Positions 37,081 through 62,485 of a DNA stretch of 64,000 nt are shown here, piece after piece. The notes under the pieces are model-generated. The model had not been told where the DNA came from, ran no database searches, and was given only the letters and a program-made list of their open reading frames with translations. The translations under genes were made by a program, and so were the position numbers. How positions within the stretch are numbered: position 1 is the first letter of the stretch; each line of letters starts with the position of its first letter. The DNA comes from Arenicellales bacterium. Its GTDB lineage: Bacteria; Pseudomonadota; Gammaproteobacteria; Arenicellales; JAHEKD01. The stretch lies in contig JANQSD010000023.1 in NCBI GenBank assembly GCA_028284225.1, positions 62,001 to 126,000 of the forward strand. Reading direction: 5' to 3'.

Positions 37081-37090
37081 TTAAATCTTC

Positions 37091-42483: not shown

Positions 42484-42485
42484 TC

Positions 42486-43352: not shown

Positions 43353-43362
43353 GACCAGCTGG

Positions 43363-44808: not shown

Positions 44809-44908
44809 ATTCTCACTACGATAACTCGTCGCTGAGAAGTATAGATGAGTTGGGGGTAATTTTTTAATCTAATTCGACCAGTTAAAGTTTTCAGGGCGTC
44901 ACTTACAT

Positions 44909-45019: not shown

Positions 45020-45174
45020 GAGGAAGTGCCACAATTAGGATTGTGGAGTTTGCATATCAGGATGGTTACAGAGGGTTAGTGTCTATACTTGCTGTTCTTT
45101 GACAACAACCCGCTTGACCTGAACTTGCATGAGGACAATAATCCGGCGTTAGTTTAACGATTTCATCACAGACG

Positions 45175-45594
45175 ATGCCTGAACACGCCATTTTATATAT
45201 TTGTTCAACCTGTCGCTATAGTGAGCAGGATAAAGAGCTTAATGGTATCACCGGTGGTGAATATCTTTATCGGCATATCACCGAGCTGGCGCCGGAAATC
45301 TTATCTGAAACCCGTTACCAGGGCGCTTATACGATCAAGCAGATCGCTTGTTTAATGGGTTGTGAGCGGCATTGTAATGTACACTTTCGGTCGCAGAATA
45401 AAATCAGTTATGTGGCGGGTAAATTCGAGCCAAATGCAGACAGTGCCAGAGCCATACTCGAGCATTTTGCCAAATACATGGATCAAGCAGATGGCCAGGT
45501 ACCCTTCCGGGAATGGCCGCAGGGCATGAAAGGTGGGCATTTTGTAGCTCGTATCCCTGCATTTACTGACGACTATCAATTACAGGATGAATAA
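45175..45594 (+). CDS. DUF1636 metal-binding protein
   Basis: 139-residue cytoplasmic protein of the DUF1636 family, often next to cobW and cobN. The cysteines are arranged as YICSTCRYSEQD (Cys10, Cys13) and ACLMGCERHCNVHF further on. This thioredoxin-like, ferredoxin-type pattern suggests an Fe-S cluster or a bound metal such as cobalt. The exact role is unknown; association with cobaltochelatase genes suggests cobalt supply or chelatase redox support. Its stop overlaps cobW at ATGAATAA. Confidence 0.85.
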   Translation: MPEHAILYICSTCRYSEQDKELNGITGGEYLYRHITELAPEILSETRYQGAYTIKQIACLMGCERHCNVHFRSQNKISYVAGKFEPNADSARAILEHFAKYMDQADGQVPFREWPQGMKGGHFVARIPAFTDDYQLQDE

Positions 45595-46672: not shown

Positions 46673-46684
46673 CGCTTATACTTC

Positions 46685-49600
46685 ATGCATTTACTAGTCG
46701 CCAAACCCGGTGGCTATAGCGATGAAACCGCTATTATTCAGCTTGGCCAATCGCCTGGTGATGTGGTTATTCTTTCAGCCGCTGATACGGATTTAGCTAT
46801 ACTTGCCGAAAAAGCTGAAATCTATGGCGACTATGCCCAAATTCGTTTGGCCAATCTCAGCCATCTGCGTAATCACGCTTCGATAGATTTATATATAGAA
46901 GAAGTTCTACAGCATGCCAAAGTGATTGTGGCCAGTTTGCTGGGCGGCTACAGTTATTGGCAATATTTGGTAGATCGATTAGTTACTGTTGCTCAATCAA
47001 AACACATCAAGCTTATTCTTCTATCGGGTACAGACCAATATGATCAGCAATTACAAAGCTATGGTAATCAAGCGGCTGAAATATGCCATGATCTGTGGAC
47101 GTACCAGCGCCAGGGCGGCCCTGATAACGCCAGCTCGTTTTTAGCTTACCTGCTTAATAAAGGCCTTGGAGTTGAGTTGCCTGAGAGCCTGGACTGGCAA
47201 CACCCTAAACCATTGCCAAAAACACTGTTATACCAAAACACAGTTGGAGCAACTGATTTTTTGAGTTTACAGTCCAGCTGGCAGCAAGGCAGACCTGTTG
47301 TAGCCATCTTATTTTACCGGGCCCATTATCAATCCGGTAATTTGCAAGTCATTGATGAACTCAGTGCAAGTTTGAATCAACGGAATATTGACGTTTTACC
47401 AATCGCTTTGACTTCGCTAAAAGATGATGAATGTTTGACAGTGGTCAATGATTTGTTAGTCAAGGCTGAAGTAAAGCTGATCATCAATACTACCAGCTTT
47501 GCTATGACCGACCCCGGTCAGGCCCCCGATGCTGATTGGTGTGCGTTTGCCGTTAACATCCCTGTTATCCAAACGGTGTTTTCCTCTTCCAATTGTGAAA
47601 GTTGGGAAGATGAGCTTACAGGATTATCACCACGTGACCTCGCTATGCATGTAGTATTACCGGAGCTGGATGGCCGTGTCATTAGTCGTACGATTTCATT
47701 CAAGGGAGAGTTAGGTTATTCTGAAACCACACAGACATCCATAAGCGGTTACCAACCACATCTCGAGCGCATACAGTGGGTGAGTGATTTTGCCAATAAC
47801 ACCCTTAAGCTTGAACAAAAGTCTAACCAGGAAAAAAACATTGCCCTGATTTTAGCCAATTATCCAACCAGGGAAGGACGTATCGGTAATGGCGTGGGTC
47901 TGGATACACCCGCTTCAGCAGTTAATATTTTACAAGCCATGGCTTGCCAAGGTTATCAGATCAATAATGTTCCAGCTGACGGTAATGCACTTATAGATAA
48001 GCTGCTTGAGGGTACCACCAATGACATAGATCTGTTGGGTATTCGTAAGCATGCCCAGTGGCTGGATGTGGCTGACTATGAGCAGTATTTTGCTGAATTG
48101 CATCCGGCACTTAAAAATCAATTGTTAGAACGCTGGGGTGAGCCACTGGATGATCCGATGGTGGTCGATGGTGCTTTTTGCATCGCAGGGTTTCGCTCAG
48201 GCAATATATTTATTGGCATTCAGCCGGCAAGGGGTTATCACATCGATTTGAATGCTAGTTATCATGATCCCGATTTGATTCCACCACATGCTTACCTGGC
48301 GTTTTATTTCTGGTTGCGTCATCAATTTAAAATGGATGCCATTATTCATGTGGGCAAGCATGGTAATTTGGAGTGGTTGCCCGGTAAAAGCCTGATGTTG
48401 TCGAATCAATGCTGGCCCGATGTCATCCTGGGTCCAGTCCCGCATTTTTATCCTTTTATTGTTAATGACCCGGGTGAGGGTGCTCAGGCAAAGCGGCGCA
48501 CTCAAGCGGTGATTATCGACCATTTGATGCCACCGCTCATGCGGGCGGAAACGTATGGCGAACTGGTGGAATTGGAGAAACTGGTAGATGAATATTATGA
48601 TGCGATCAGTTTGGATCCAGTACGTAGTACGCTATTAAAAAAACAAATCCTGGAAAAATGTCAACAGTACAACCTGTTAGAAGAAATTACCGCTATTAAA
48701 AAAACCGACAGTGAAGATTCGGATCAGTTATTAAACCAGTTAGATGCCTACTTATGTGAGTTAAAGGAATCTCAGATTCGCGATGGCCTGCATGTTTTTG
48801 GGCAATCCCCTGAGGCAGCGTCGCGAGCCTCAACGCTATTGGCCATTAGCCGATTACCGGTTGCTGATGGCAAGCAGGCAAATCAAAGCCTGATTAAAGC
48901 TTTGTCGCAGGATTTTGGTTTTGGCGTGGAATTTGATCCATTGACTTGCGACATGGCACAAAGCTGGTCGCATCGGCAACCTGAGCAGCTTGTTCAGTTG
49001 TTAAAAACCGCATGGCGTACTAACGGTGATACCCGGGAACGCCTGGAATTATTTGCTTTGTCGTTGTTAACTGACGAGACAAACACCGACCTGGAAAGTT
49101 TTGCACGAACAAGGCAAGTGTTGGATCGCGTCCGTCAACAGGTCGCTCCGGCACTTGATATATCAGGGCCTAATGAATTGAACAAACTGTTAGTCGGATT
49201 AGCCGGAAAGTTTGTTCCACCTGGTCCTAGCGGTGCGCCCAGCCGTGGACGGGTTGATGTGTTGCCAACCGGGCGTAATTTCTATTCAGTCGATGTGCGG
49301 GCGGTGCCAACACCAACGGCTTGGAGTATCGGTTTTAAATCTGCCACCCGCTTAATCGAGCGCTATGTTCAGGACCACGGTGAATTTCCAACCAGTATTG
49401 GAATTTCAGTGTGGGGGACAGCCACCATGCGTACCGGCGGCGATGATATTGCTCAGGCTCTGGCACTAATGGGTGTTAAACCTAAGTGGGCAACGGGTTC
49501 AAATCGTGTGCAGGATTTTGAAGTGCTGCCCCTCTCGGTGTTAAACCGTCCACGAGTAGATGTCACCTTGCGTGTGTCCGGCTTTTTCCGTGATGCCTTT

Positions 49601-50470
49601 TTAAATGTGATCAAATATTTTGATGCCGCTGTGCAAAAAGTCGCCGAGCAAGACGAAGATGAGTTAATGAATCCCATTCGTGCCCGGATCGTCAACGAAA
49701 CACAGCAATTAATCAGTCAGGGAATTCAAAATGATCAGGCACGAAAACAGGCCGGCTGGCGGGTGTTCGGGTCCAAGCCGGGTGCTTACGGAGCCGGCTT
49801 GCAAGGCTTAATCGACCAGCAAATTTGGGATGATCGCAGCGATCTGGCTGAGGCGTATACCAACTGGGGTGGTTATGCCTATGGCCAAAAAGATGAGGGC
49901 ACGGCATCACGCGATACTTTTGTTCGCCGTCTTAGCTCCATAGACGCGGTACAACAAAACCAGGATAACCGCGAGCACGACATTCTGGATTCTGATGATT
50001 ATTATCAATTCCAGGGCGGTATGACCAGCGCCGTTGAACACTATCGCAATGAGAAGATAGCCGTTTATCATGGTGATACCAGTCATCCTGAAAATCCACG
50101 CATTCGCAGTTTAAAAGAGGAAATTTCCAGAGTCATTCGTGCCCGGGTGGTTAATCCGAAATGGCTTGATAGCATTCAACGCCACGGATACAAAGGTGCA
50201 TTTGAGTTGGCGGCGACAGTGGATTACTTATTCGCCTATGACGCTACCACCAATGTGATTGAAGATTATCAATATCAAATGGTCGCAGAGGCATACTTGC
50301 TGGACGATGAAATACGGCAATTTTTATCTGACAACAACCCGGCGGCTTTAAGAGAAATGAGCGAACGCTTTCTTGAAGCCATGGATCGTGAATTATGGCA
50401 GCAACCGGGACAGATGCGCGCTAAAATCGAATCCATTATGATTGATGCCGAAAATACCTTGGAACAGTGA
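46685..50470 (+). CDS. cobN: Cobaltochelatase large subunit CobN
   Basis: Large catalytic subunit of the ATP-dependent aerobic cobaltochelatase, 1261 residues, as expected. It binds hydrogenobyrinic acid a,c-diamide and cobalt. CobN/BchH family blocks include IIHVGKHGNLEWLPGKSLML near residue 557, GRVDVLPTGRNFYSVD near 855, GISVWGTATMRTGGDDI near 905 and KPGAYGAGLQGLID near 1035. It requires AAA and VWA partner subunits, supplied by the frameshifting chlI/chlD gene immediately downstream. The CobN stop TGA overlaps the next gene's GTG start (GTGA). Confidence 0.96.
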   Translation: MHLLVAKPGGYSDETAIIQLGQSPGDVVILSAADTDLAILAEKAEIYGDYAQIRLANLSHLRNHASIDLYIEEVLQHAKVIVASLLGGYSYWQYLVDRLVTVAQSKHIKLILLSGTDQYDQQLQSYGNQAAEICHDLWTYQRQGGPDNASSFLAYLLNKGLGVELPESLDWQHPKPLPKTLLYQNTVGATDFLSLQSSWQQGRPVVAILFYRAHYQSGNLQVIDELSASLNQRNIDVLPIALTSLKDDECLTVVNDLLVKAEVKLIINTTSFAMTDPGQAPDADWCAFAVNIPVIQTVFSSSNCESWEDELTGLSPRDLAMHVVLPELDGRVISRTISFKGELGYSETTQTSISGYQPHLERIQWVSDFANNTLKLEQKSNQEKNIALILANYPTREGRIGNGVGLDTPASAVNILQAMACQGYQINNVPADGNALIDKLLEGTTNDIDLLGIRKHAQWLDVADYEQYFAELHPALKNQLLERWGEPLDDPMVVDGAFCIAGFRSGNIFIGIQPARGYHIDLNASYHDPDLIPPHAYLAFYFWLRHQFKMDAIIHVGKHGNLEWLPGKSLMLSNQCWPDVILGPVPHFYPFIVNDPGEGAQAKRRTQAVIIDHLMPPLMRAETYGELVELEKLVDEYYDAISLDPVRSTLLKKQILEKCQQYNLLEEITAIKKTDSEDSDQLLNQLDAYLCELKESQIRDGLHVFGQSPEAASRASTLLAISRLPVADGKQANQSLIKALSQDFGFGVEFDPLTCDMAQSWSHRQPEQLVQLLKTAWRTNGDTRERLELFALSLLTDETNTDLESFARTRQVLDRVRQQVAPALDISGPNELNKLLVGLAGKFVPPGPSGAPSRGRVDVLPTGRNFYSVDVRAVPTPTAWSIGFKSATRLIERYVQDHGEFPTSIGISVWGTATMRTGGDDIAQALALMGVKPKWATGSNRVQDFEVLPLSVLNRPRVDVTLRVSGFFRDAFLNVIKYFDAAVQKVAEQDEDELMNPIRARIVNETQQLISQGIQNDQARKQAGWRVFGSKPGAYGAGLQGLIDQQIWDDRSDLAEAYTNWGGYAYGQKDEGTASRDTFVRRLSSIDAVQQNQDNREHDILDSDDYYQFQGGMTSAVEHYRNEKIAVYHGDTSHPENPRIRSLKEEISRVIRARVVNPKWLDSIQRHGYKGAFELAATVDYLFAYDATTNVIEDYQYQMVAEAYLLDDEIRQFLSDNNPAALREMSERFLEAMDRELWQQPGQMRAKIESIMIDAENTLEQ

Positions 50471-51459
50471 CCATGAAAGTCGATTATCCTTTTTCTGCCG
50501 TGGTGGGCAATGACGAACTGAAACGAGCGCTAAGCTTGTGCATGATCGATCCAAGTCTTGGTGGTGTTGTGGTAGAGGGTGATCGTGGTAGTGCCAAGTC
50601 TACCTTGGCTCGCGGATTAGCCCAGTTGATGAATAGCGGTCAGTTTGTGAATTTGCCTTTAGGCGCTTCTGAGGAACAATTAATAGGCTCGCTGGACATA
50701 AGTGAAGTTCTGTCTAATAACGAAGTTAAATTCAAGCCCGGTCTGCTGGCCAAAGCCCATCAGGGTGTGCTTTATATTGATGAAGTGAACTTGCTTGCAG
50801 ATCACTTAACAGATGTTTTATTGGATGTAGCGGCCAGCGGTATTAATATTGTAGAGCGTGATGGCATTTCGCATCAACATGAGGCCAGGTTTGTCTTGGT
50901 CGGCAGTATGAATCCTGATGAAGGTGTGTTACGCCCCCAATTACTTGATCGATTTGGGTTTTGTGTATTGAGTGAAACACCAACTGCGTTTGATGCCCGC
51001 AAGGAAGTAGTCGCTCGTCGCCTTGCGTTCGAATCGGATCCAACGGCTTTCGTCAGTAGTTATGAGACGGAGCAAGCAAACTTGTCTGGGCAACTACAAG
51101 CGGCAAGTGTTGATCTTGCAAGTATTGTTGTCCCCGAACAAATCAGTAATGCCATTGCAGAGCTATGCTCGTCCTCCGGCTGTGAAGGTTTACGGGCCGA
51201 CATCACACTCTACAAAGCGGTCAGAGCCAATGCAGCACTTGAGGGCAGAACTGAGGTAGGCACTGAGGATATAAACCAAGTTAAAGAGCTTGTATTAAGG
51301 CATAGACGCAAGCCCATACAAGACAGTGCACCTCCCAAGCGTCGGCCAAACAATCCAACACCACAACAGCAAGTTGATTCATCAAGTAACCAAAATGAAC
51401 GACATCAACATGCTGAAGTCGAGTATCTGGATCAGGCCCTTAAAGAAAAAAAGTCCTGA
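50467..51459 (+). CDS. chlD: Chelatase AAA+ subunit (ChlI-like), 0-frame product of chlD
   Basis: AAA+ ATPase of 330 residues resembling magnesium chelatase subunit I/D, here the motor for CobN. Walker A is GDRGSAKST (38-46), Walker B VLYIDEVNLL near 99-108, and sensor region VGSMNPDEGVLRPQLLDRFG near 140-159. After about 285 comes a Pro/Gln/Asn-rich linker (PPKRRPNNPTPQQQ). Such a linker normally joins the AAA and VWA parts of ChlD, yet here the frame stops at TGA 51457. The stop follows a slippery A_AAA_AAG, so this is probably the short product of a gene that also makes a full ChlD by -1 frameshifting. Start at GTG 50467 or ATG 50473. Confidence 0.93.
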   Translation: MTMKVDYPFSAVVGNDELKRALSLCMIDPSLGGVVVEGDRGSAKSTLARGLAQLMNSGQFVNLPLGASEEQLIGSLDISEVLSNNEVKFKPGLLAKAHQGVLYIDEVNLLADHLTDVLLDVAASGINIVERDGISHQHEARFVLVGSMNPDEGVLRPQLLDRFGFCVLSETPTAFDARKEVVARRLAFESDPTAFVSSYETEQANLSGQLQAASVDLASIVVPEQISNAIAELCSSSGCEGLRADITLYKAVRANAALEGRTEVGTEDINQVKELVLRHRRKPIQDSAPPKRRPNNPTPQQQVDSSSNQNERHQHAEVEYLDQALKEKKS

Positions 51460-51484
51460 ACCGTCGCGCCGGTCTGCGCGGCGG
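51447..51484 (+). promoter_or_regulatory. Probable -1 programmed ribosomal frameshift site in chlD
   Basis: Slippery heptamer A_AAA_AAG at 51447-51453, in the correct phase with the AAA-subunit frame, followed by a 7-base spacer. Next comes a GC-rich stem CCGTCGCG (51461-51468) / CGCGGCGG (51477-51484), 8 pairs with one G-U, and an 8-base loop. Slipping back one base moves ribosomes past TGA 51457 into the VWA frame. A possible upstream Shine-Dalgarno-like stimulator is only weak (GGATCAGG at 51429-51436). Confidence 0.85.
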
Positions 51485-52139
51485 CAATCAAGCAAAACAC
51501 AAAAATGATATAGCAATCAGTCAACATCTGGGTATTGCCGGTAAAGGCAAGACCAAAACATCCAACACCATCAGTTGGTTGCAAACCTTAATTCAAAACC
51601 AGGGCAGGCCACGAGAACCGGCTGATTTGGTTTACCGGCGTTTGGTCAATCAAGTGCCGACTAATACGGTAATTGTTTGGGATACTTCCGCCAGCACCTT
51701 ACGTAATCAGGCTGCATCCACAGCTAAAGGGATTGTTTTGGCCTTACTCGAGCAAGCTTACACAAGACGTGAACGCATAGGATTATTGGAATTCTCAGCT
51801 GATGAAGTGAGGGTAGTCACGCCTTGCCAACGGGTTAACCGCGAGTTCATCACACCAACCATCACTAAATTGGCAATCGGTGGTAACACACCTATTGATC
51901 GTGCCATTATCGAAGCCGGTACTATGCTCAAGTTAGCACAAAATAATCAGCCGCATGCACTGTCCAAACTGATTCTGATTACAGACGGTTGTTTCAAGAC
52001 CTTACCAGCTAAACCCGAATTTGATGCTGCAATAACTATTATGGATATAGATCGAGGCGCAGTGAAAATCGGGCAATGTGAGAAATTGGCCCAACTGTGG
52101 GCAGCTGAGTTAATCCACATGTATGAATTGCAAAAGTAA
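51453..52139 (+). CDS. chlD: VWA half of ChlD, read after -1 frameshift
   Basis: The -1 frame after the slippery site encodes 228 residues ending at TAA 52137-52139. It starts VLNRRAGLRGGNQAKHKND and continues into a von Willebrand A domain. The metal-ion-dependent adhesion site is complete: DTSAS (Asp at 51681), GGNTPID and ITDGC. The stretch has no plausible independent start before TTG 51579, and that start would cut the linker, so translation as a separate protein is unlikely. Fused with 329 residues of the AAA part it gives a ChlD of about 557 residues, the normal size for a chelatase D subunit. Partner of CobN. Confidence 0.88.
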   Translation, partial: VLNRRAGLRGGNQAKHKNDIAISQHLGIAGKGKTKTSNTISWLQTLIQNQGRPREPADLVYRRLVNQVPTNTVIVWDTSASTLRNQAASTAKGIVLALLEQAYTRRERIGLLEFSADEVRVVTPCQRVNREFITPTITKLAIGGNTPIDRAIIEAGTMLKLAQNNQPHALSKLILITDGCFKTLPAKPEFDAAITIMDIDRGAVKIGQCEKLAQLWAAELIHMYELQK

Positions 52140-52199
52140 CTTTAAAAAGTTAGTGGGTGCTTATACAATCGTTTTTCAATCGTATCCAAGAGTTTAATC

Positions 52200-52805
52200 A
52201 TGTCCATTACCGATCAGGAAAAACACAAGCGTGCAGCGGAAAAACGTAACGCCGGTTATGAGAAAAAACAGGCGCAAGCAACCAAAGAAAAAGGGTTGTT
52301 TATTATTAACACTGGTACAGGCAAAGGTAAAACCTCCGCCGCTATGGGAATGGTTATACGCGCTGTCGGCCATGGCATGAAAGTCGGGGTAGTGCAATTC
52401 ATCAAAGGGGCCAAAGAAACGGCCGAGCGCAATGTCTTAAGTGGTTTCGATAATGTAGAGTTTCATTCTATTGGTGATGGCTTTACCTGGATTACGCAAA
52501 ATCGGGAACAGGATATCGCCACGGCTGAAAAAGCCTGGCACATTGCCAAACAGATGATTGAAAATCCTGACTATGACATGGTCTTGCTGGATGAGCTCAA
52601 TATTATTCTAAAATACGATTATTTGAATACCGATGAAGTATTGGCGGTCATTAACGATCGCCCCGAAATGATGCACGTTATTGTCACCGGTCGTCATGCT
52701 AAAGATAACTTAATTGAAGCCGCTGATTTGGTCAGTGAAATTCGTCCGATCAAACATCCCTATAAAGAACAAGGTGTTAAAGCCCAGAAGGGTATCGAAT
52801 TTTAA
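52200..52805 (+). CDS. cobO: Cob(I)alamin adenosyltransferase
   Basis: CobO/BtuR-type ATP:corrinoid adenosyltransferase of 201 residues, which adds the 5'-deoxyadenosyl group to reduced corrinoids. The basic N-terminus (HKRAAEKRNAGYEKKQAQA) is followed by an inverted P-loop IINTGTGKGKTSAAMGM (residues about 34-50), VGVVQFIKGAKETAE and MVLLDELNIILKYDYL near 127-142. Its last base overlaps the start of cobC, so the two are coupled. Confidence 0.96.
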   Translation: MSITDQEKHKRAAEKRNAGYEKKQAQATKEKGLFIINTGTGKGKTSAAMGMVIRAVGHGMKVGVVQFIKGAKETAERNVLSGFDNVEFHSIGDGFTWITQNREQDIATAEKAWHIAKQMIENPDYDMVLLDELNIILKYDYLNTDEVLAVINDRPEMMHVIVTGRHAKDNLIEAADLVSEIRPIKHPYKEQGVKAQKGIEF

Positions 52806-53845
52806 TGCCTGAAGCGCATGGGGGAATTCGTCCTCAGGAGTTAATGCAACTGGGAATTGATCCCAATCACATTATCGACTTTAGTGTTAATTCAAATCCA
52901 TTTGGTCCACCACCAGGCTTAAACGATTATCTGCTTGACGTTGATCTCACTCATTATCCAGATCCACAGTGTTATAGACTAAAAAAAATATTAAGTGAAG
53001 CGGCGACTACATCTGTTGATTGCATTGCTATCGGCAACGGCAGTGTAGAATTGATTTGGGCTTGTGTTAGGGCATTTGTGAGCAGAAGTGATCGTGTGCT
53101 GGTAGTAACACCTACTTTTGGGGAATATCAGGGCGCGTTAGATTTGTTGGGCATTCAAGCAACTGAATACCAATTAGATATTAGTAATCCGAATATAAAT
53201 GTTGAAGAAATAAACAATAAAATCAATAAAATAAAACCTAAACTTACATTTATTTGTAACCCCAATAATCCTACCGGTCATGTGTATACACAGCAACAGG
53301 TTCAATTAATTGCTGCGAGTTGTGAAACCGTGGGTGGATATTTAGTGCTTGATGAAGCCTATCGGGCCTTTGCAGGATTAGTCCAATTTGCCCCAAATCC
53401 TTTTCAAAATACTATTGTCTTGCGATCAATGACCAAGGATTTTGCCATTCCTGGCTTGAGATTGGGCTACGCCTTAGCTGATAAGAAACATATCGAAGCA
53501 ATTACTGCTCAATGCCCGCCTTGGAGCGTCAGTGCCATGGCACAAAAAGCAGGCGAATTTCTTTTGGTGAATAGTAGTAAGACTGAGCGCACTATTACAA
53601 AAACGCTGGAACTCGCTAAACAGTTTAAGCGACAATTATCCAGTTCAGGTCTCACACCCATGCCGTCATCAACGCATTATTTTCTTGTAAATGTGGGTAG
53701 TGCAACAACTATCAGGCGGCGATTGCTTGATTCGTATATCCTGGTACGAGACTGCAGCTCATTTGGTTTGCCTGAGTATATTCGGATTTCAACCCGGTTG
53801 CCTGAAGAGAATGCCCAGCTTTGTAAGGTGTTGGCGCAAATGTGA
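52805..53845 (+). CDS. cobC: L-threonine-O-3-phosphate decarboxylase
   Basis: PLP-dependent enzyme of 346 residues (CobC in the aerobic nomenclature, CobD in enterics) that makes (R)-1-aminopropan-2-yl phosphate. Aminotransferase class I/II marks are FSVNSNPFGPP (26-36), NPNNPTGHVY (152-161), VLDEAYRAFAG near 181-191, and the PLP-binding Lys211 in SMTKDFAIPGLRLGYA. PduX, also in this locus, supplies its substrate. It is the last gene of the rightward cobalamin operon and is followed by tandem hairpins. Confidence 0.94.
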   Translation: MPEAHGGIRPQELMQLGIDPNHIIDFSVNSNPFGPPPGLNDYLLDVDLTHYPDPQCYRLKKILSEAATTSVDCIAIGNGSVELIWACVRAFVSRSDRVLVVTPTFGEYQGALDLLGIQATEYQLDISNPNINVEEINNKINKIKPKLTFICNPNNPTGHVYTQQQVQLIAASCETVGGYLVLDEAYRAFAGLVQFAPNPFQNTIVLRSMTKDFAIPGLRLGYALADKKHIEAITAQCPPWSVSAMAQKAGEFLLVNSSKTERTITKTLELAKQFKRQLSSSGLTPMPSSTHYFLVNVGSATTIRRRLLDSYILVRDCSSFGLPEYIRISTRLPEENAQLCKVLAQM

Positions 53846-54026: not shown

Positions 54027-54911
54027 CTATTGAGTTTTACTAAGCGCCTGAATCAATGTGCCTAGATTATGCTCGAACATTTTCTCGTAACTGGTCGCTG
54101 GCCCGCCTCGTTCTGATAAGGCATCGGAGTAGATTTTTCCACCAATTTCTATTCCTGTATCACGGGAGATCTGCTCAACCAATGCCGGGCTGGTGATATT
54201 CTCGACAAATAGTGCGCCAGCTCCAGTTTCATTTAGATAATCGATTAGAGCGGCAAGTTCCTTAGCAGAAGGTTCTGCTTCAGTATCAATGCCAACTGGG
54301 GCCAAAAATGTCAGTCCGTATGCACTTTCCAGATAACCGAATGCATCGTGAGCAGTGACCACGGTTCTTTGATCTGCAGGTAGCTTTTCAATTTTTGCCA
54401 GAGCATCTTCATGCATGGTTTGTAAACGTTCTATGTAGGCATCGGCATTGGCTTTGTAGGTGGTCGCATTGTCAGGGTCGACCATTGCCAGGTTATCAGC
54501 AATGTTGGTCACGTAGGTGACTCCGTTAGGCAGTGCATTCCAGGCATGCGGGTCTATCTCACCATCGACTTCCAGGGGCGTCACGCCATCGGTTGCGGTG
54601 AATACCTTGGCTTTGGTGCCGGAATTCTCAATCAGGGTTTGAGACCAGGTTTCAAAACCCAGGCCATTGACAAAAATGACATCAGCATTTGTGACGGCCT
54701 TGGCATCAGCGGTGTTCGGCGTGTAAACATGCGCGTCGGCATCAGGTCCAACAATGGTTTCAATTTCGGCCAAATCGCCGGCAACCTGGCTGACCATATC
54801 TCCAAGGATGGAAAAACTGGCAACAACGTTAATTTTATCCTGTGCTACAGCAGGCATGTTGCTCAGTAATAAGCCGCCAGTCAGTACCAACGCGCTAAAG
54901 ATTTTTTTCAT
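54027..54911 (-). CDS. Metal ABC transporter substrate-binding protein (ZnuA/TroA family)
   Basis: Periplasmic binding protein of 294 residues, cluster A-I. Signal peptide about 1-23 (cut after PAVA). The four metal ligands of the ZnuA/MntC family are visible: His61 (DAHVYTPN), His122 (DPHAWNALPN), His188 (TAHDAFGYL) and Asp263 (IYSDALSE). There is no His-rich loop of the kind seen in many zinc-specific ZnuA proteins. Control by a cobalamin riboswitch upstream suggests the metal is cobalt rather than zinc or manganese; this is inference. AAGGAGA lies 9 bases before ATG 54911, and it overlaps the permease gene by 17 bases. Confidence 0.9.
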   Translation of the reverse strand: MKKIFSALVLTGGLLLSNMPAVAQDKINVVASFSILGDMVSQVAGDLAEIETIVGPDADAHVYTPNTADAKAVTNADVIFVNGLGFETWSQTLIENSGTKAKVFTATDGVTPLEVDGEIDPHAWNALPNGVTYVTNIADNLAMVDPDNATTYKANADAYIERLQTMHEDALAKIEKLPADQRTVVTAHDAFGYLESAYGLTFLAPVGIDTEAEPSAKELAALIDYLNETGAGALFVENITSPALVEQISRDTGIEIGGKIYSDALSERGGPATSYEKMFEHNLGTLIQALSKTQ

Positions 54912-55812
54912 CAGAGAGTTCTCCTTGATTCAGGGTTGAGTTTAGTTGAGTAGAAGTAGTTTTTTCGTTGTTATCAGGCGAAAGACGATTAACAACATGA
55001 AAACCTTGCGGTGCAAAAATCAAACTGATAAAGAAAATTATGCCAGCGACAAGAACGATTGCAGGACCTGAGGGTACTTCAGGCAAATAAAACGAGACGA
55101 TCAAGCCAATCCAGCAACTCATTAACGCAAACAAAAAAGTCAGAATTAAAAAGTGGGTGATGGTGGAGACCCAATAACGTGCTGCGGTAGCCGGCAAAAT
55201 CATAAGACCCACCGCCATCAATGTGCCCAGTGCCTTGAATGCACCCAAAAGATTTAACACTACCAGAAACATGAACCACTGGGTCACCAGGCCAGGGTGT
55301 TTGGATTGGCTTTCGTGGAATATGGGATCAATGGTGTTGATGATCAACGGCCGGGTGATTAGAGCGAAACTGATTAACGTAATAGTGGCTGTTGCGCCAA
55401 TTAACAGCAACGTCTCATCATCAATGCCAAGTATCGAACCAAACAAAAAACTCTTCAGTGGTACCGCAGAACCTGCTGCTGAGAGGATGAATATACCGAG
55501 CGCAAGTGCAATGAGATAGAGTGAAGCCAGGCTTGCATCTTCACGGATAATGGTTCGGCGAGCCAGCAGACTGGTTAGTGCAGCGACTACAACTCCTGCG
55601 GATAACCCGCCAATAATCATGGAGACTACTGACAACCCGGAGACGACAAAAGCAATAACAATGCCCGGAACGATGGCATGCGCCATGGCCTCTCCTGCCA
55701 GGGATAAACGCCTGAGAACCAGAAATGCACCAACCGGCGCGACAGAAAAACTCAATACTAACGTTGCGGCTAATGCCCGCACCATAAAGGAGTACTCCAA
55801 CCACTCAAACAT
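54895..55812 (-). CDS. Metal ABC transporter permease (ZnuB family)
   Basis: Inner-membrane permease of the ABC-3 (ZnuB/MntB) family with eight or nine hydrophobic segments. Family blocks are GAFLVLRRLSLAGEAMAHAI near residue 30 (from the start used here), FGSILGIDDETLLL near 128 and ALGTLMAVGLMILPATAARY near 200. ATG 55812 is preferred to the longer start at 55833. It gives MFEWLEYSFM as in related permeases, has AGGATGAG 5 bases upstream, and overlaps the ATPase stop by 8 bases (coupled). It partners with the ATPase and binding protein on either side. Confidence 0.88.
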   Translation of the reverse strand: MFEWLEYSFMVRALAATLVLSFSVAPVGAFLVLRRLSLAGEAMAHAIVPGIVIAFVVSGLSVVSMIIGGLSAGVVVAALTSLLARRTIIREDASLASLYLIALALGIFILSAAGSAVPLKSFLFGSILGIDDETLLLIGATATITLISFALITRPLIINTIDPIFHESQSKHPGLVTQWFMFLVVLNLLGAFKALGTLMAVGLMILPATAARYWVSTITHFLILTFLFALMSCWIGLIVSFYLPEVPSGPAIVLVAGIIFFISLIFAPQGFHVVNRLSPDNNEKTTSTQLNSTLNQGELSDEKNL

Positions 55813-56563
55813 ATTGCTCATCCTGATTGGCATACATGGATTCGAACCAGGTGGCCTGGCTTTGCGATAAGTAGCCGTAGTTCACCAGATTATGAGTGGT
55901 TAGTATTTGCTTGGGCTGACCGAATAACGCACCGTCTGATCCAAGTAAAAGCACTGAATTACAGTGCTGTAACACCGCAGAAAGATCGTGTAATACGAGA
56001 ACTACAGTTCGGCCTTCTGCGGCCCAATCGTCGATCAGTGTCAGCAGCTCGGCCTCAGTTGTCTGATCAACGGCGGTGAAGGGTTCATCCAACAAGATCA
56101 ATGATGCATTTTGTATAATTGTGCGAGCAAAAAGAGCGCGTTGCAGCTGGCCGGCTGAAAGCTTATAGAGCGGCATATCAGCGATCTCGATAATGCCGGT
56201 GCGCTCAAGTGCAGTGTTGATCCGGTTTTGGCAGGCTTTATCCACCTTGCCTAGTATCCCCAGCCCTGGCCAAGCGCCCATAGCGGCCAGATCACGAACC
56301 CTGAGTGGAAAGTGATTATCAAATCCTGAACCCTGGCCCAGACAGGCGATGATTTCTGGTTTAGTGTTACCCCAGCGTAGTTCTCCGGCCAGAGGCGGCA
56401 GGTTGCCCAGCAGTGTTTTAATCAGCGTCGATTTCCCTGAACCATTTTGACCGACAACCGCAAATACATCCCCTAGAGTGACTTCGAACGTCACTCCTTT
56501 CAAAATGGGGACATCTCGATAGCCAAGTGTCAGTCCGGCTGCCGAGAGCAGAGTAGGTTGCAT
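55805..56563 (-). CDS. Metal ABC transporter ATPase (ZnuC family)
   Basis: ATP-binding subunit of 252 residues. Walker A is VGQNGSGKST (about 37-46), the Q-loop CLGQGSGFDNHF is near 94, the signature LSAGQLQRALF near 140-150, and Walker B LILLDEPFTAVD near 162-173, with switch His in LVLHDLSA. It energises metal import with the downstream permease and binding protein. It starts 20 bases after the small membrane-protein gene and belongs to the riboswitch-controlled operon. Confidence 0.9.
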   Translation of the reverse strand: MQPTLLSAAGLTLGYRDVPILKGVTFEVTLGDVFAVVGQNGSGKSTLIKTLLGNLPPLAGELRWGNTKPEIIACLGQGSGFDNHFPLRVRDLAAMGAWPGLGILGKVDKACQNRINTALERTGIIEIADMPLYKLSAGQLQRALFARTIIQNASLILLDEPFTAVDQTTEAELLTLIDDWAAEGRTVVLVLHDLSAVLQHCNSVLLLGSDGALFGQPKQILTTHNLVNYGYLSQSQATWFESMYANQDEQYV

Positions 56564-56583
56564 TTAATGTTTTAAATGACTAA

Positions 56584-56721
56584 TCAAGTGCCAACGGTGG
56601 CAGCTATTACTATCCAAAGCAAAGAGCAGACTACACCGATAATGATTAAATGCTGTAAGGTACTGGCTGAAGTTAGATCAAGTTCAAGTCGCTGACTGAC
56701 TTGTCGTTTATTTAAAGACAT
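56584..56721 (-). CDS. 45-residue single-pass membrane protein
   Basis: Short gene (ATG 56721 to TGA 56584) with a good ribosome site, AGGAG, 8 bases upstream. The product has a charged N-terminal half (NKRQVSQRLELDL) and one hydrophobic helix at about residues 24-42 (LIIIGVVCSLLWIVIAATV). It lies between the cobalamin riboswitch and the ABC ATPase and so is the first gene of the operon. It resembles in size and layout small accessory subunits of metal transporters (CbtB, CbiN type) but lacks a His motif, so no family is assigned. Its conserved-looking start signal and position argue that it is real. Confidence 0.7.
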   Translation of the reverse strand: MSLNKRQVSQRLELDLTSASTLQHLIIIGVVCSLLWIVIAATVGT

Positions 56722-56769
56722 TGGCAAAACTCCTGGGACACCCGCCCACGTTGGCTTAAAAATTCATTT

Positions 56770-56957
56770 CCCTGGCAGGTCTTCTGGCTTATGGTCATCG
56801 GGGTTGTGTGCTTGTCTTCCCGGATTCGTTGTTCCAGTGACACGTCTTGCACTCCCTACCACATACAGATGCGGGTACAGCCTCGGCTTTGCCTTGACTC
56901 AAGCTCAGCTTACCGAGTTCCCTATTAAGCCTCAGCCCCTTTTAGGCTTGGCACCAG
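56770..56957 (-). ncRNA. Cobalamin riboswitch
   Basis: On the minus strand the order of conserved cobalamin-aptamer boxes is complete: GGTGCC near the 5' end (56950-56955), then AATAGGGAA, the central GCTGTACCCGC, CACTGG, CCGGGAAG and the closing GCCAGAAGACCTGCC (56773-56787). It ends about 50 bases before the small membrane-protein gene. A GTGGGCGGGTGTCCC segment just before that gene's ribosome site may form the switching hairpin. High adenosylcobalamin would be expected to shut off the downstream metal transporter. Confidence 0.95.
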
Positions 56958-57021: not shown

Positions 57022-57708
57022 TTAACCACATGATTTGTTTTGTTGCCGATTGGTCCTAGAGCTGGAATATTGTTCAAAATGCACCGCAGAGCTTTTTCGG
57101 CGGCGTTTTTTCCAATCGAGGATTTCCAGTTCCGGTTTATCGAGGAAGTCGTTGACATAACCAAGACATAAATAGCCGATCAGCTCGTGATCGTCCGGTA
57201 CTTGCAGCACTTTTTTGACATCTTGAGGGTCAAGTATACTGACCCATCCCAGGCCGATATTATAGGCACGAGCCATCAACCATAGGTTCTGGATGGCACA
57301 AACTACACTATAACGGCCAACTTCTTCCATGCTGTTTTGACCTAGCACGGCTTCCTGAGGGGGATTATAAAAAACGGCTAAATTGAATGCCGATTCCAAA
57401 ATGCCTTCGAGTTTGAGTTGTTTATAGTGATTCTTTTTATCGCCTTCAAATTCTTCAGTTGCACATTGATTGGCTTGTTTGAAATTCTGAACAATTTTTT
57501 TACGAGTTTCCAAGTCTCTAACAATGATGAATTCCCACGGTTCGGACAGACCGACAGAAGGTGCAGTCATGGCCGCAGAGAGTAATTCCAGAATTATTTC
57601 ATCGTTAACCGGTTGATCAGAAAAGTGATTACCTCGCACATCACGGCGTGACTCCATGATATGCATTAGCATTTCACGGGAAGTTTGGTCAAAAAACGAA
57701 GTGCTCAC
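57022..57708 (-). CDS. bluB: 5,6-dimethylbenzimidazole synthase
   Basis: Oxygen-dependent flavin-destroying enzyme that makes the lower ligand of B12 from FMNH2. 228 residues. The nitroreductase-like start ESRRDVRGNHFSDQPV (about 19-34) carries the BluB-specific Asp/Arg pair, SAAMTAPSVGLSEPWEFI (about 45-62) is the flavin region, and GLGWVSILDP near 152 is typical. Presence of BluB means aerobic synthesis of dimethylbenzimidazole. Its start overlaps the end of cbiA/cobB by 20 bases. The last 25 residues are basic and Ser/Gln-rich, an extra tail. Confidence 0.94.
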   Translation of the reverse strand: MSTSFFDQTSREMLMHIMESRRDVRGNHFSDQPVNDEIILELLSAAMTAPSVGLSEPWEFIIVRDLETRKKIVQNFKQANQCATEEFEGDKKNHYKQLKLEGILESAFNLAVFYNPPQEAVLGQNSMEEVGRYSVVCAIQNLWLMARAYNIGLGWVSILDPQDVKKVLQVPDDHELIGYLCLGYVNDFLDKPELEILDWKKRRRKSSAVHFEQYSSSRTNRQQNKSCG

Positions 57709-59056
57709 TTTGGTCTAAATCTGTTGTAAGTTGTGTTTTGGCAATGTCAATCAAGTGGATAAACGAGGAACAAATATTGCCGCGATGATAACCTGTGTTT
57801 GGCAGCGTTACACCTGTTGCATTGGCCATTTTGAATAGCGGCATGTCGTCAGGTTCAGCGAGTTCCTGGCTGTAATGAAATTCATGGCCGTTATAAATTG
57901 TACCGGTTGTACCAAGCAGGTTATCCTGAGTCAGTTCAAGTTTCCGATAACCCAAGGTCATTTTGGGTTTAGAAAACGATGTTCTATGCGGCAATAAACC
58001 GGCCATGGGATACTCTTTTTGATCTTTGCCGGTAATAGATTGACCTAACACCATGTGGCCGCCGCATTCCGCATAAATGGTTTTGTTGTGTTGTGCAGCG
58101 TCTGTCAATGATTGCTTGAAGTTTTGCGCCGTCTCTAAAGCAGGTAAATGCAGTTCCGGATAGCCGCCTGGTAAAAATACGGTATCACAGCTCGAGTCAG
58201 GCGTTTCATCAGAGAGTGGCGAGAAATAACTGATTTCACTGCCATTTTTATTCCACGAACTGATGAAGTGGGCGTAAACAAATGAAAAAGCATCATCTTT
58301 AGCTATAGCAATATGTTTACCTAGTGGTGCTATGGTTTTAAGTTCATCACCAACAATCTGTTGAGGCAACGAGCAGGCTTGTGCGTGATTTTGTATTAGA
58401 CTTAGATTTAGGTGCGGTTTTAAATGCTCAGCAACCTTATCGATAAAAACATCAATATTTTTATGCTCATGAGCTTGATGAAGTCCCAAATGACGGCTTG
58501 GCCTTTCAAGATCAGGGTTTCTGGGTATGATGCCAAGCACAGCAATGTTTAGAGGTTTTAAAACTTGTTTTAACATTTCGGCATGTTTGCTGCTGCCGAC
58601 TTTATTGAGAATAATTCCGGCAATCTCTACGTCTTTGCGGTATGACAAAAACCCTTTAACCAAGGCACCCACTGAGTGTGACTGTTTGCTGGCGTCAATA
58701 ATAAGAATTACTGGCCAACCCGTAAGCCTGGCCAAATCAGCGGTCGAACCTGAATCAGGAGTCACGCCGTCGAATAATCCCATCATGCCTTCAACTAAAT
58801 TAAATTTGTTAGCACCTAGATGAGCGATAATTTGAGCGATTAACAACGGTCGCATTGCCCAGGGGTCTAGATTGTGACATTCGCTTTTACTGGCCAAGCT
58901 GTGATAATGGGTATCAATATAGTCCGGACCGACTTTGTAAGCCTGAGGTTGTTGACCGGCTTGTAATAATAGCCTCAATAATCCAAGAGTAATTGTTGTC
59001 TTGCCGCTGCCGGAACTAGGTGCGGCCAGGATGATGCCAGAATAATCTCGTTTCAT
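57689..59056 (-). CDS. cobB: Cobyrinate a,c-diamide synthase
   Basis: Glutamine-dependent amidase of 455 residues (CobB/CbiA) that amidates the a and c side chains. N-terminal synthetase domain: ILAAPSSGSGKTTITLGLL (about 9-27) and KVGPDYIDTHYH near 41-52. C-terminal glutaminase domain: FLPGGYPELHLP and nucleophile Cys in YAECGGHMVLGQ near 325-336. Whether the substrate is hydrogenobyrinic acid (late cobalt) or cobyrinic acid (early cobalt) cannot be read from the sequence. It overlaps cobA by 4 bases and bluB by 20, forming a cobA-cobB-bluB unit. Confidence 0.95.
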   Translation of the reverse strand: MKRDYSGIILAAPSSGSGKTTITLGLLRLLLQAGQQPQAYKVGPDYIDTHYHSLASKSECHNLDPWAMRPLLIAQIIAHLGANKFNLVEGMMGLFDGVTPDSGSTADLARLTGWPVILIIDASKQSHSVGALVKGFLSYRKDVEIAGIILNKVGSSKHAEMLKQVLKPLNIAVLGIIPRNPDLERPSRHLGLHQAHEHKNIDVFIDKVAEHLKPHLNLSLIQNHAQACSLPQQIVGDELKTIAPLGKHIAIAKDDAFSFVYAHFISSWNKNGSEISYFSPLSDETPDSSCDTVFLPGGYPELHLPALETAQNFKQSLTDAAQHNKTIYAECGGHMVLGQSITGKDQKEYPMAGLLPHRTSFSKPKMTLGYRKLELTQDNLLGTTGTIYNGHEFHYSQELAEPDDMPLFKMANATGVTLPNTGYHRGNICSSFIHLIDIAKTQLTTDLDQSEHFVF

Positions 59057-59853
59057 TCGGTTACTGCTTGCTCTGCAAGCCAGTTGAGCTGTGATCGTAA
59101 CGTAACGTTTTTGCCTATTATAACGATGCAGGGGGTAGCAATATTCCAGTCCTCTGAATAGCTTTTACATTTTTGCAAAGTGGTTTCCAGCACGCTTTGT
59201 TGATCAGTCGTGGCGCTGCTGATTAACGCTACAGGCTCTTTTTTACAGCGGCCACTATCGATTAATTTTTGAGCAATCAAGTCTAACCGATGTAAAGTCA
59301 TGTAGAGCACTAGTGTGCCGCCGGTGGTGGCTAAGGTCGTCCAGTCAACTTTGTCGATTTCCTCATTATTAGCATTATGTCCGGTGATGAAACTGACCAC
59401 AGAATTGTAATCACGATGAGTAATCGGGATGCCGGCATAGGCTGGACCGGCAACACCACTGGTTATCCCGGGGATTACTTTGAAAGGAATATTGTGTTTG
59501 ACCAAGGCCAATGCTTCTTCGCCACCACGGCCGAATACGAATGGATCGCCACCTTTTAACCTGACAACTCGCTTGCCTTTTTGAGCCAACTCCACCAGTT
59601 TTAATGAAATATCTTTTTGCTGGGGAGAGGGTTTGCCGCCGCGTTTGCCGGAATAAATTTTCTCTGTTGCCTCGTCGGCTAAATCCAAAATTTGTGGATT
59701 TATTAGAGCGTCGTAAACCAAACAATCTGCTGATTGAATCGCCTTTAAGGCTGACAAGGATAATAATCCTATATCACCAGGACCTGCGCCGACCAGCCAG
59801 ACCTGGCCTGGCTGGACCTCAGGAAATTGATCCGATAATTCTTGTAACTGCAT
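59053..59853 (-). CDS. cobA: Uroporphyrinogen-III C-methyltransferase
   Basis: SAM-dependent methyltransferase (CobA/SUMT) that makes precorrin-2 from uroporphyrinogen III. 266 residues from the chosen start. ATG 59853 is preferred: the frame extends to 59994, but the extra 47 codons are unlike the family and overlap the cbiD coding start on the other strand. Family blocks are VWLVGAGPGDIGLLSLSAL, VRLKGGDPFVFGRGGEEALA and VIPGITSGVAGPAYAGIPIT. It is divergent from cbiD, with 46 bases between the starts. It may also serve siroheme synthesis. Confidence 0.94.
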   Translation of the reverse strand: MQLQELSDQFPEVQPGQVWLVGAGPGDIGLLSLSALKAIQSADCLVYDALINPQILDLADEATEKIYSGKRGGKPSPQQKDISLKLVELAQKGKRVVRLKGGDPFVFGRGGEEALALVKHNIPFKVIPGITSGVAGPAYAGIPITHRDYNSVVSFITGHNANNEEIDKVDWTTLATTGGTLVLYMTLHRLDLIAQKLIDSGRCKKEPVALISSATTDQQSVLETTLQKCKSYSEDWNIATPCIVIIGKNVTLRSQLNWLAEQAVTE

Positions 59854-59899
59854 GGATAGTGCTTTATAACAACCCAATAACGTTAAATATAGTACTTGC

Positions 59900-61012
59900 T
59901 TGCAACAATCATCAGCACCAACTGACCCAACAACAAGCCCTGACAAATTAAGGAAGGGTTGGACCACGGGTGCCTGTGCAACAGCGGCTGCCAAAGCCGC
60001 TTATCATAGCTTAATCACCGGCAGCAAGGTAGCAAAAGTAGCAATAACGTTGCCTCGGGGTCAACAGGTTGAATTCAAGCTTGAATCACTGGAAATAATT
60101 GATGAAATCACAGCAAAGGCGAGTGTAATTAAAGATGCAGGCGATGATCCTGATGTGACTCATGGTGCTGAAATCTTCAGCACCATCAGGCTCACGCAGC
60201 AGCCGGGTATTCAATTTAAAGCGGGTAAAGGTGTGGGTACTGTCACTCGTCCAGGTTTGAAACTGGCTGTTGGGGAGCCCGCCATTAATCCGGTGCCAAG
60301 GCAAATGATGGAGCAGATGATTGGTGAATTAGCCCATCATTATGATCAACCCGGGGATGTTGAAATAACAATCAGTATTCCCAATGGCGAGGAATTGGCT
60401 AAACGAACTTTGAATGGTCGATTGGGCATAGTTGGTGGGTTATCTATTTTGGGCACCACGGGAATTGTCAAACCATATTCCTGTTCGGCTTGGATTGATT
60501 CTATTCATCGGGGTATTGATGTGGCCAAAGCCTCGAAGATTGAGCATGTAGCCGCTTGCACTGGCAGTACCTCAGAACAGGCGGTTCAACGCTATTTGGG
60601 GTTGGCCGATGTAGCAATGTTGGAAATGGGGGATTTTGTTGGTGCAGTTTTGAAATATTTACGCAAGCATCCGATTCCCAAGCTAACCATTGGCGGTGGT
60701 TTTGGCAAAATCTGTAAGTTAGCGATGGGATATATAAATTTACACTCCAAAGAATCGAAAATAGATTTTAGTTGGCTGGCAGAGCAGGCCAAGTTGGTCG
60801 GTGCTGATGAAGCTTTAAGTAAACACATTGTTAATGCCAATACCGCGCTTGAAGTTCTTGAAACTTCATTAAAAGCTGACCTCAATCTACCAACACATAT
60901 TGCTGCTTTGGCGCAGAAACAAATCACCGAGCGACTCGATGATAATATGTCAGTTAATGTGATAATTGTTGATCGTGACGGTCAAGTAGTTGGAGAAACC
61001 GTTGAAGGTTAA
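59900..61012 (+). CDS. cbiD: Cobalt-precorrin-5B C(1)-methyltransferase
   Basis: CbiD methylates C-1 of the contracted ring. It is the cobalt-route counterpart of CobF but also occurs in some aerobic pathways. The product has 370 residues. The diagnostic RKGWTTGACATAAAKAAY is at residues about 18-35. ITLPRG, AGDDPDVTHGAEI and the late TIGGGFGKICKLAMG near 255-270 follow. The start is TTG 59900; no ATG occurs before the conserved block. CobF is not present in the window, so CbiD probably does this step. It overlaps cobK at its end. Confidence 0.94.
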   Translation: MQQSSAPTDPTTSPDKLRKGWTTGACATAAAKAAYHSLITGSKVAKVAITLPRGQQVEFKLESLEIIDEITAKASVIKDAGDDPDVTHGAEIFSTIRLTQQPGIQFKAGKGVGTVTRPGLKLAVGEPAINPVPRQMMEQMIGELAHHYDQPGDVEITISIPNGEELAKRTLNGRLGIVGGLSILGTTGIVKPYSCSAWIDSIHRGIDVAKASKIEHVAACTGSTSEQAVQRYLGLADVAMLEMGDFVGAVLKYLRKHPIPKLTIGGGFGKICKLAMGYINLHSKESKIDFSWLAEQAKLVGADEALSKHIVNANTALEVLETSLKADLNLPTHIAALAQKQITERLDDNMSVNVIIVDRDGQVVGETVEG

Positions 61013-61769
61013 GCTATTGGTTTTAGGTGGAACTACACTGGCCAGAGAACTGCTTGACAGTTTAGCAGAGTATTCGCAATTTCATACAACTGTATGTCTA
61101 ACAAGGAAGACAACGGGTTATGAGCAGGCTGACCGTCAAATTGTTGGATTATTAAATGGGGAATCAGCTCTTATTGAACTCATCAAGTCTCAGAAAATTG
61201 ATTGGTTGATTGATGCTACGCACCCGTTTGCGAAGGAAATTTCGGAAACTGCGCTTATAGCCAGCACGGATACTAAAGTGCCGTTGTTGGCTTTGCAAAA
61301 TAAGGCCTGGGCTAAGCGAGACGGTGATAACTGGATCGAAGTCAACGACCATGGTGAAGCAATTAATTATTTGTCTAAGTTGGCCAATAATAGCCATGTT
61401 TTTTTGAGTGTTGGCGGCAGGAGAATTCGGGGTTATGCCCGGTTGAAATCAATTCGATTAACCGCAAGGTGCATTCGTACCGACTTTGTTTCGAAAACTG
61501 AGAATATAAAAATAATAAAACAAAAAGGACCGTTTGATATTAATAATGAACGTGAGTTGTTTAAACGTGAACAATTTGATTATTTGGTAACAAAAAATGC
61601 TGGCACACAGGCAACTTACAGTAAAATACAAGCCGCAAGAGAGTTTAATGTACCTGTAGTAATGATTCAGCGAATTGAATATGAAACTGGAATAAAATTC
61701 CAAGTCCCTGAGCAATTAGTTGATTTCATCGCTAGCCATATCAAGCCACACACCGGAACAAGTCATTAA
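61002..61769 (+). CDS. cobK: Precorrin-6A reductase
   Basis: NAD(P)H-dependent CobK/CbiJ enzyme that reduces precorrin-6A (or its cobalt form). 255 residues from TTG 61002, chosen because GGAG lies 6 bases before it and the chain starts directly with KVKLLVLGGTTLARELLDSL. The frame extends to a TTG at 60990. DATHPFAKEISETA near residue 75 and FLSVGGRRIRGY near 130 are family blocks. It overlaps cbiD by 11 bases and is 2 bases from the transporter gene. Confidence 0.9.
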   Translation: MKVKLLVLGGTTLARELLDSLAEYSQFHTTVCLTRKTTGYEQADRQIVGLLNGESALIELIKSQKIDWLIDATHPFAKEISETALIASTDTKVPLLALQNKAWAKRDGDNWIEVNDHGEAINYLSKLANNSHVFLSVGGRRIRGYARLKSIRLTARCIRTDFVSKTENIKIIKQKGPFDINNERELFKREQFDYLVTKNAGTQATYSKIQAAREFNVPVVMIQRIEYETGIKFQVPEQLVDFIASHIKPHTGTSH

Positions 61770-61771
61770 CT

Positions 61772-62485
61772 ATGGAAAATTTACTAATCGTCGGCTTTCT
61801 ATTTGGCCTTAGGCATGCAATCGAAAGCGATCATTTCGCAGCAGTTGCCAGTTTAACCACACAAAGTGCAAACGTTCATCAAGCTGTCAGAATTGGTCTG
61901 GTTTGGGGTTTGGGTCACACTATGACATTGTTTCTAATAGGTGGCATAGTGTTAGCTTTCGATTCAGTAGTGCCGGAGACTTTTTCTGCGTTACTTGAAT
62001 GGTTTGTTGGCTTAATGCTGGTGCTGTTGGGAATAGATTTGATTCGTCGGATATGGAAGGAAAAAATCCATTTTCACTCTCATGCTCATTCCGACGGGGT
62101 AAAACATTTCCATGCGCATAGCCATAAGAACGAAACAAAACCGCATGATCAAAGCCCACACGACCATTATCATTCTCGAAGATTCACTTATCGTGCATTT
62201 TTTGTGGGACTTATTCACGGGCTTGCCGGATCAGCAGCATTAATATTATTGACATTAGGAACAACGCAAAGCCTGACTCTGGGCATGTTATACATTCTGA
62301 TATTTGGTTTAGGTTCAGTTCTTGGTATGGGTGTCTTGTCATTCGTAATTGCAATCCCAATACTTAGATGGAAACACATCAATAATGTCTATTCCTCAAT
62401 TTGCATTCTTGCAGCATTAGTGACCATTTCTGTTGGCATTTATATTCTTTATGAAAACAACTCCATTCTATTAACACTAATTTAG
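61772..62485 (+). CDS. NiCoT-like nickel/cobalt transporter
   Basis: Inner-membrane protein of 237 residues with about six hydrophobic segments. The first carries GLRHAIESDHFAAV, matching the H-x4-D-H metal signature of the HoxN/NixA clan (His15, Asp20, His21). The second conserved block is GLVWGLGHTMTLF. A cytoplasmic loop at about 98-132 is rich in His (HFHSHAHSDG, HAHSHKN). Short members of this clan include UreH- and CbtC-type proteins. The position at the end of the cbiD-cobK operon argues for cobalt. Import is assumed; an exporter (RcnA-like) is less likely in a B12 operon. Confidence 0.82.
   Translation: MENLLIVGFLFGLRHAIESDHFAAVASLTTQSANVHQAVRIGLVWGLGHTMTLFLIGGIVLAFDSVVPETFSALLEWFVGLMLVLLGIDLIRRIWKEKIHFHSHAHSDGVKHFHAHSHKNETKPHDQSPHDHYHSRRFTYRAFFVGLIHGLAGSAALILLTLGTTQSLTLGMLYILIFGLGSVLGMGVLSFVIAIPILRWKHINNVYSSICILAALVTISVGIYILYENNSILLTLI

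Follow-up and report, generated by a model that had tools for sequence, protein, structure and literature searches.

A predicted B12-regulated metal importer in a B12 biosynthesis cluster

The window analyzed here is a stretch of 64,000 nucleotides from the genome of an Arenicellales bacterium (contig JANQSD010000023.1, positions 62,001 to 126,000). Its minus strand carries, surrounded by genes of B12 biosynthesis, an operon in which a cobalamin riboswitch is followed by an open reading frame (ORF) of 45 amino acids and then by genes for the ATPase, the permease, and the binding protein of an ATP-binding cassette (ABC) importer. A preliminary description had proposed a cobalt importer repressed by B12. 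Comparison with relatives supports this proposal well, short of proof, with two members of the group having turned to Zur-type control. We consider it likely, on the basis of sequence comparison, that the operon encodes a high-affinity Co(II) importer, repressed by B12, that arose once from the zinc-importing AztABC systems.

The riboswitch (56973–56757, minus strand) is a complete Rfam aptamer, matching RF00174 over model positions 1-189 of 189 with 94.9 bits (gathering score 31.5, E = 2.4e-22), and the conserved boxes noticed earlier at 56770–56957 are the core of this match. Next comes a stretch that reads as the expression platform (56722–56756, minus strand), with GGGCGGGTGTCCC and then an AGGAG ribosome site at 56734–56730. 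A GGGCGGG(G)TG-CCC / GGAG block in the leader is common to most relatives. Simple folding of the leader did not reveal a uniform anti-ribosome-site hairpin, and the mechanism, repression of the operon's translation by the riboswitch, is thus one that we infer.

The coordinates of the three transport genes, including their overlaps, were confirmed, and all three products exceed the Pfam cut-offs: the ATPase (55805–56563, minus strand; ABC_tran, 82.7 bits), the permease (54895–55812, minus strand; ABC-3, 162.9 bits), and the periplasmic binding protein (54027–54911, minus strand; ZnuA, 272.3 bits). The earlier label of "Znu-type" needs one correction: the nearest characterized system is AztABC (Group III, cluster A-I) and not the E. 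coli type of ZnuABC. The proteins are AztA-, AztB-, and AztC-like without reaching the NCBIfam equivalog cut-offs (187 of 220, 214 of 280, and 272 of 350 bits, respectively). These cut-offs are strict, since the zinc-type Azt operon of the same genome passes only that for AztA. For the predicted structure of the binding protein (predicted local distance difference test score, pLDDT, 89), the best fold match was AztC (6xpn; Z 32.6, 3.0 Å over 256 residues, 46% identity).

A single clade with a change of regulatory elements

Relatives were collected by a permease-alignment scan of 84,980 species genomes, which gave at least 26 close relatives among the matches listed (L066–L091). These score 320–515 bits against the window permease, whereas ordinary Azt loci (L092–L145) score at most 250 bits, a clean separation. 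Most are Alphaproteobacteria, including Ruegeria, Shimia, Roseovarius, Labrenzia, Pseudaestuariivita, and Cohaesibacter. An earlier survey of the class with the binding protein had returned nothing but relatives of Azt and binding proteins without partner genes, none with a riboswitch, because the clade is sparse in that class; the wider contig scan found it. Orphan AztC-like proteins, at most 48% identical to the window protein, occur at L040, L041, L043, L045, L046, and L047, where neighboring genes for an ABC permease or ATPase are lacking. One of these loci, L043, also holds two oppositely oriented HEARO RNAs (1530–1772 and 2467–2733) no more than about 1 kb apart.

In a tree of the three proteins, the window operon and the 26 relatives share one side of a branch with a Shimodaira–Hasegawa-like approximate likelihood ratio test (SH-aLRT) support of 100, and this clade is sister to ordinary zinc AztABC. 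A riboswitch lies directly upstream of the operon in 24 of the 26 relatives, or 25 of 27 with the window, and is missing only in L079 and L090. Mapped on the tree, the riboswitch label requires two changes, compared with 18.3 when labels are shuffled; the two are best read as one gain of the riboswitch and one loss.

Zinc-type regulation shows the opposite distribution. A Zur-like box, defined as the palindrome ATGTTAT-N3-ATAACAT with at least 11 of 14 matches within 450 bp upstream, was present in 45 of 64 Azt operons versus none of the 26 clade relatives. Both arrangements occur in the source genome, where a perfect 14/14 palindrome (L054, 5335) accompanies an ordinary Azt operon and the riboswitch accompanies the window operon. 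Zur boxes in the promoter had been named in the preliminary description as evidence that would speak against cobalt. None stands directly upstream of the window operon; the only palindrome of at least 11/14 in its upstream region is a weak one at 57656, in a neighboring coding region.

The two members without a riboswitch, L079 (5248–11322) and L090 (38–4704), are sisters in the tree. No riboswitch was found in L079 even at a relaxed threshold, and Zur-like boxes lie farther upstream in both (11/14 and 13/14, respectively). Both also adjoin genes for zinc-type COG0523 GTPases, which accompany none of the riboswitch-bearing members but 43 of 64 Azt loci. These two operons thus appear to be a natural return to zinc-type control.

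Metal sites and gene content

The preliminary description had noted that the binding protein keeps an H-H-H-D site and lacks the His-rich loop of zinc-type proteins, and both points stand. Residues H61, H122, H188, and D263 are retained; the three histidines are invariant and the aspartate nearly so. Clade and Azt binding proteins alike keep the 3His/1Asp site, but the His-rich D-loop is absent from all 27 clade members. There are further differences: three residues past the second ligand, all 27 clade proteins have Asn (N125) versus Gln in 25 of 27 Azt proteins, and in the loop corresponding to the Z-loop most clade members have Asp (D209) versus Ser in all 27 Azt proteins. In the permease, the D-H-D transmembrane triad is replaced by E41-H45-D92, with Glu at position 41 in 27/27 clade members versus Asp in all 28 Azt permeases compared. 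Further changes in the clade are Ser121 for His and Lys193 for His or Gln. The permease is homologous to 7kyp (E = 1.2e-25), and its position 41 corresponds to the Asp in the PsaB motif. In MntC the corresponding residue is Asp47, which belongs to a set of three titratable residues that transport requires (PMC8487065).

The genes found with the operon also point to cobalt. A match to the CobN family was present in 25 of 26 clade genomes, the exception being that of L090; the L079 genome has a single such match, at 1123 bits, in a range attributed to BchH rather than CobN. The riboswitch is therefore missing exactly where no clear CobN was found. Other cobalt importers are mostly absent: relative to Azt-only control genomes, which differ from the clade genomes in taxonomy, CbtA or a strong CbiM match was found in 2 of 27 versus 10 of 19 (Fisher p = 0.0013), and NiCoT matches above 200 bits in 0 of 27 versus 5 of 19.

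A conserved single-helix membrane protein

The first gene of the operon (56584–56721, minus strand) begins with an ATG at 56721 behind the AGGAG ribosome site and encodes 45 amino acids (P0001), for which an AlphaFold model has one helix, residues 6–44. The strong ribosome site and the single membrane helix had both been noticed before. So had the lack of a recognizable family, which is borne out by the absence of any Pfam (E 1) or NCBIfam match. Searching for this ORF directly in 274 genomes of the class and in plasmids yielded nothing above chance level, since so short and divergent a protein escapes such a search, and its relatives were found by position instead. Of the 26 clade loci, 25 have an ORF that encodes a single Trp-containing helix and ends at the ATPase start; of the 64 Azt loci, 61 do (60 by script and L144 by eye). 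This total of 86 of 90 compares with 34 of 1511 other gene starts (2.25%) and with 0 of 90 reverse-strand controls. The ratio of nonsynonymous to synonymous differences (pN/pS) in frame was 0.34 and 0.46 for two clade sets, 0.23 for Bradyrhizobium Azt operons, and 0.53 for the window's own group, and it was higher in the other two frames in every set. Judged from these sequence patterns, the ORF is a real coding gene under purifying selection; together with the 2.25% background, this rules out a chance ORF.

The "new small subunit" of the preliminary description was thus half right: the ORF is a conserved coding gene whose product is missing from the family libraries searched, yet it is not confined to operons under B12 control. 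Since it also precedes aztA in zinc-type operons, including the source genome's own, it belongs to the wider AztABC family and not to cobalt. A relation to CbtB or CbiN was ruled out, as the 45-aa protein matches neither and 16 members of its family gave no Pfam match (0.1) except for two hits at chance level; nor did members match NCBIfam beyond chance. In many zinc-type versions the helix is preceded by a long, His-rich N-terminal tail (for example, L092, L094, L102, L117, L120, L123, and L144), and such tails are absent from the clade. Where the ORF and aztD were compared, 86 loci had the ORF alone, four had AztD alone, two had neither, and none had both. In the Paracoccus-type operons examined, which are of the kind with AztD, the ORF is missing, and this may explain how it came to be overlooked. 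It was not mentioned in the literature search described below, outside which lie some subscription papers.

We infer that in operons without AztD the protein, probably with a cytoplasmic N-terminus, serves the permease as a membrane subunit or as an assembly factor. It could instead be a leader peptide or a coupling device that lands ribosomes for the ATPase gene, without working as a protein. Its first position after the riboswitch, a stop codon that overlaps or abuts the ATPase start in many relatives, and N-termini that vary greatly between loci would fit such a role. However, the amino-acid constraint is centered on the transmembrane helix, the Trp is invariant across riboswitch and Zur operons, zinc-type members carry His-rich tails, and the ORF was found with AztD in no locus. 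We therefore regard the leader explanation as doubtful.

Alternative substrates

Among the alternatives to cobalt, the best surviving is a broad importer of Mn, Fe, Ni, or Zn for which control by B12 is incidental. Binding proteins of cluster A-I often bind several metals in vitro; MntA, the binding protein of B. anthracis, accepts Co and Ni besides Mn and Zn (PMC8487065). However, the riboswitch is kept in 24 of 26 relatives and missing exactly where CobN is unclear, and the source genome has separate Zur-type Azt and Sit-like systems. We judge this alternative to be unlikely. More improbable still is a zinc importer that is switched on at low B12 to supply MetE, the zinc-dependent, B12-independent methionine synthase. 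The zinc-type ligand set and the AztC relatives agree with it, and metE is under B12 riboswitches in other bacteria (for an example, see PMC8620254). However, MetE (PF08267 above cut-off) is absent from the source genome and from all riboswitch-bearing clade genomes, which argues against a zinc importer serving this enzyme and largely refutes the idea; the only clade genome with MetE (G419) is that of the riboswitch-less L079. Additionally, most of these genomes have further ZnuA-family binding proteins, with four more in the source genome. Import of a corrinoid (B12 or cobinamide) is very unlikely. In its favor, BtuFCD is commonly under cobalamin riboswitches, and appears so in the source genome at C14 (L052, by inspection). 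It was rejected on protein families, since all three proteins here are cluster A-I metal-ion types, with an intact 3His/Asp site, and not BtuF or BtuC types.

Cobalt is then the substrate that we favor, given one clade, a riboswitch in 25 of 27 members, no adjacent Zur box, CobN present, and MetE and most other cobalt importers absent. When adenosylcobalamin is scarce, the leader would leave the ribosome site open, and the small membrane protein, the ATPase, a homodimeric permease, and the periplasmic binding protein would be made. The binding protein would capture Co(II) in the periplasm via three His and one Asp, and the permease, with its modified triad, would pass the ion inward to CobN for insertion into the corrin ring. 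Once B12 suffices, the riboswitch would close and import would be shut off.

Several observations weigh against this interpretation. First-shell ligands are identical to those of the zinc-binding AztC, and L079 and L090, with their zinc-type-looking regulation, retain Glu41 and nearly all other signatures; consequently, these residues mark the clade and cannot alone define cobalt. Apart from the window, L073 is the only locus where genes of B12 biosynthesis lie close to the operon, and a NicO-like gene on the far side of the window's own B12 cluster could carry cobalt too. Several relatives are metagenome-assembled genomes, which makes the absences of CobN, MetE, and other importers soft, and since the genomes are related, the p-values are not independent tests.

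Known importers of cluster A-I transport Zn, Mn, and Fe. A literature search, outside which lay the 2003 survey naming CbtC-CbtG and other subscription papers, found no riboswitch-controlled importer of cobalt of the ZnuA type. If the present interpretation is true, a cobalt branch of single origin with a natural reversal would offer a ready-made experiment on metal choice, and the change of Asp to Glu in the permease gives one obvious residue to swap. It would also account for the cobalt supply to B12 synthesis in marine Roseobacter-type and related bacteria that lack the classical transporters of this metal; many algae depend on the vitamin. Independently of cobalt, the annotations examined omit a conserved small membrane protein that most of the AztABC operons seen here encode, so that a component may be missing from reconstitutions and models of these importers. 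A broader scenario, which we consider evenly balanced between true and false, is that a zinc importer turned to cobalt once, exchanging a Zur box for a riboswitch and altering its transmembrane site, and reverted once to zinc-type control, while the AztD-less branch of AztABC uses the one-helix subunit in the role of the chaperone.

Flanking genes and other riboswitches

On the cobN side, the operon is flanked by B12 genes at 35072–53845: a CbiX/CbiK-type gene, cobM, cobJ, cobI, cobL, cobH, cobD, cobQ, DUF1636, cobW, cobN, chelatase AAA and VWA genes, cobO, and cobC. CbiX, DUF1636, cobW, and AAA were assigned by Pfam, CobN by profile match, and the others by inspection. The CbiX/CbiK-domain, chelatase-like protein (35072–36262) lies in the same cluster as cobN, which brings two kinds of cobalt-chelatase family together. 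On the bluB side (57022–62485) are genes for a BluB-like nitroreductase, cobB, cobA, cbiD, cobK, and a NicO-like membrane protein, with the nitroreductase and NicO assigned by Pfam and the rest by inspection. Directly after cobK, the NicO-like protein (61772–62485) has a His-rich loop and only about 30 bits to NicO; the cluster may thereby possess a further transporter for cobalt or nickel.

Further cobalamin riboswitches were seen. In the source genome, one lies ahead of an unidentified 114-aa ORF (L053, region 4280–4887), and a third (L052, 5119–5289) precedes an apparent TonB receptor and the BtuF/C/D-like genes, by inspection. Among the relatives, L087 has a second riboswitch (8870–9082) downstream of the binding protein gene and L077 a second, divergent one (5361–5548) next to the operon, both without an obvious target gene. 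Roseobacter-type leaders (L077, L078, L081, L082, and L084) have some 150 additional bases separating the riboswitch from the small ORF, and in several of them a common upstream reading frame begins with MTMFQAV, possibly a leader peptide.

Comparison with known systems

The closest known system is AztABCD of Paracoccus denitrificans, which has the same three core families, the nearest fold in AztC, and the 3His/1Asp site in common with the window operon. It differs in having AztD, a His-rich D-loop, and an adjacent Zur box; no AztD was found in the clade loci L066–L091, and the window operon has no ORF for it either. The window operon adds the cobalamin riboswitch and the small ORF, has Glu for Asp in the permease, and falls below the NCBIfam cut-offs. 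The PsaBC and MntBC manganese permeases are homologous to the window permease and share the position of the transmembrane triad, with the essential Asp47 of MntC replaced by Glu41 (PMC8487065).

In other bacteria, CbiMNQO and CbtAB are cobalt transporters under B12 riboswitches, with CbiN and CbtB as small membrane subunits. The predicted role, the control, and a small membrane protein are common to these and the window system. However, their protein families are unrelated, the 45-aa protein matches neither CbtB nor CbiN, and CbtA and CbiM are absent from most clade genomes. Earlier work gave the names CbtAB, CbtC-CbtG, and CbtX to predicted transporters of cobalt (PMC2667541). A functional parallel is CbtJKL of Sinorhizobium meliloti, a canonical Co(II) ABC importer under an adenosylcobalamin riboswitch, in which CbtJ resembles BtuF (PMC7689651). 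It has the architecture, control, and Co(II) role predicted for the window system, whose binding protein belongs instead to the ZnuA family, with no match to BtuF; the two would be independent inventions of the same role.

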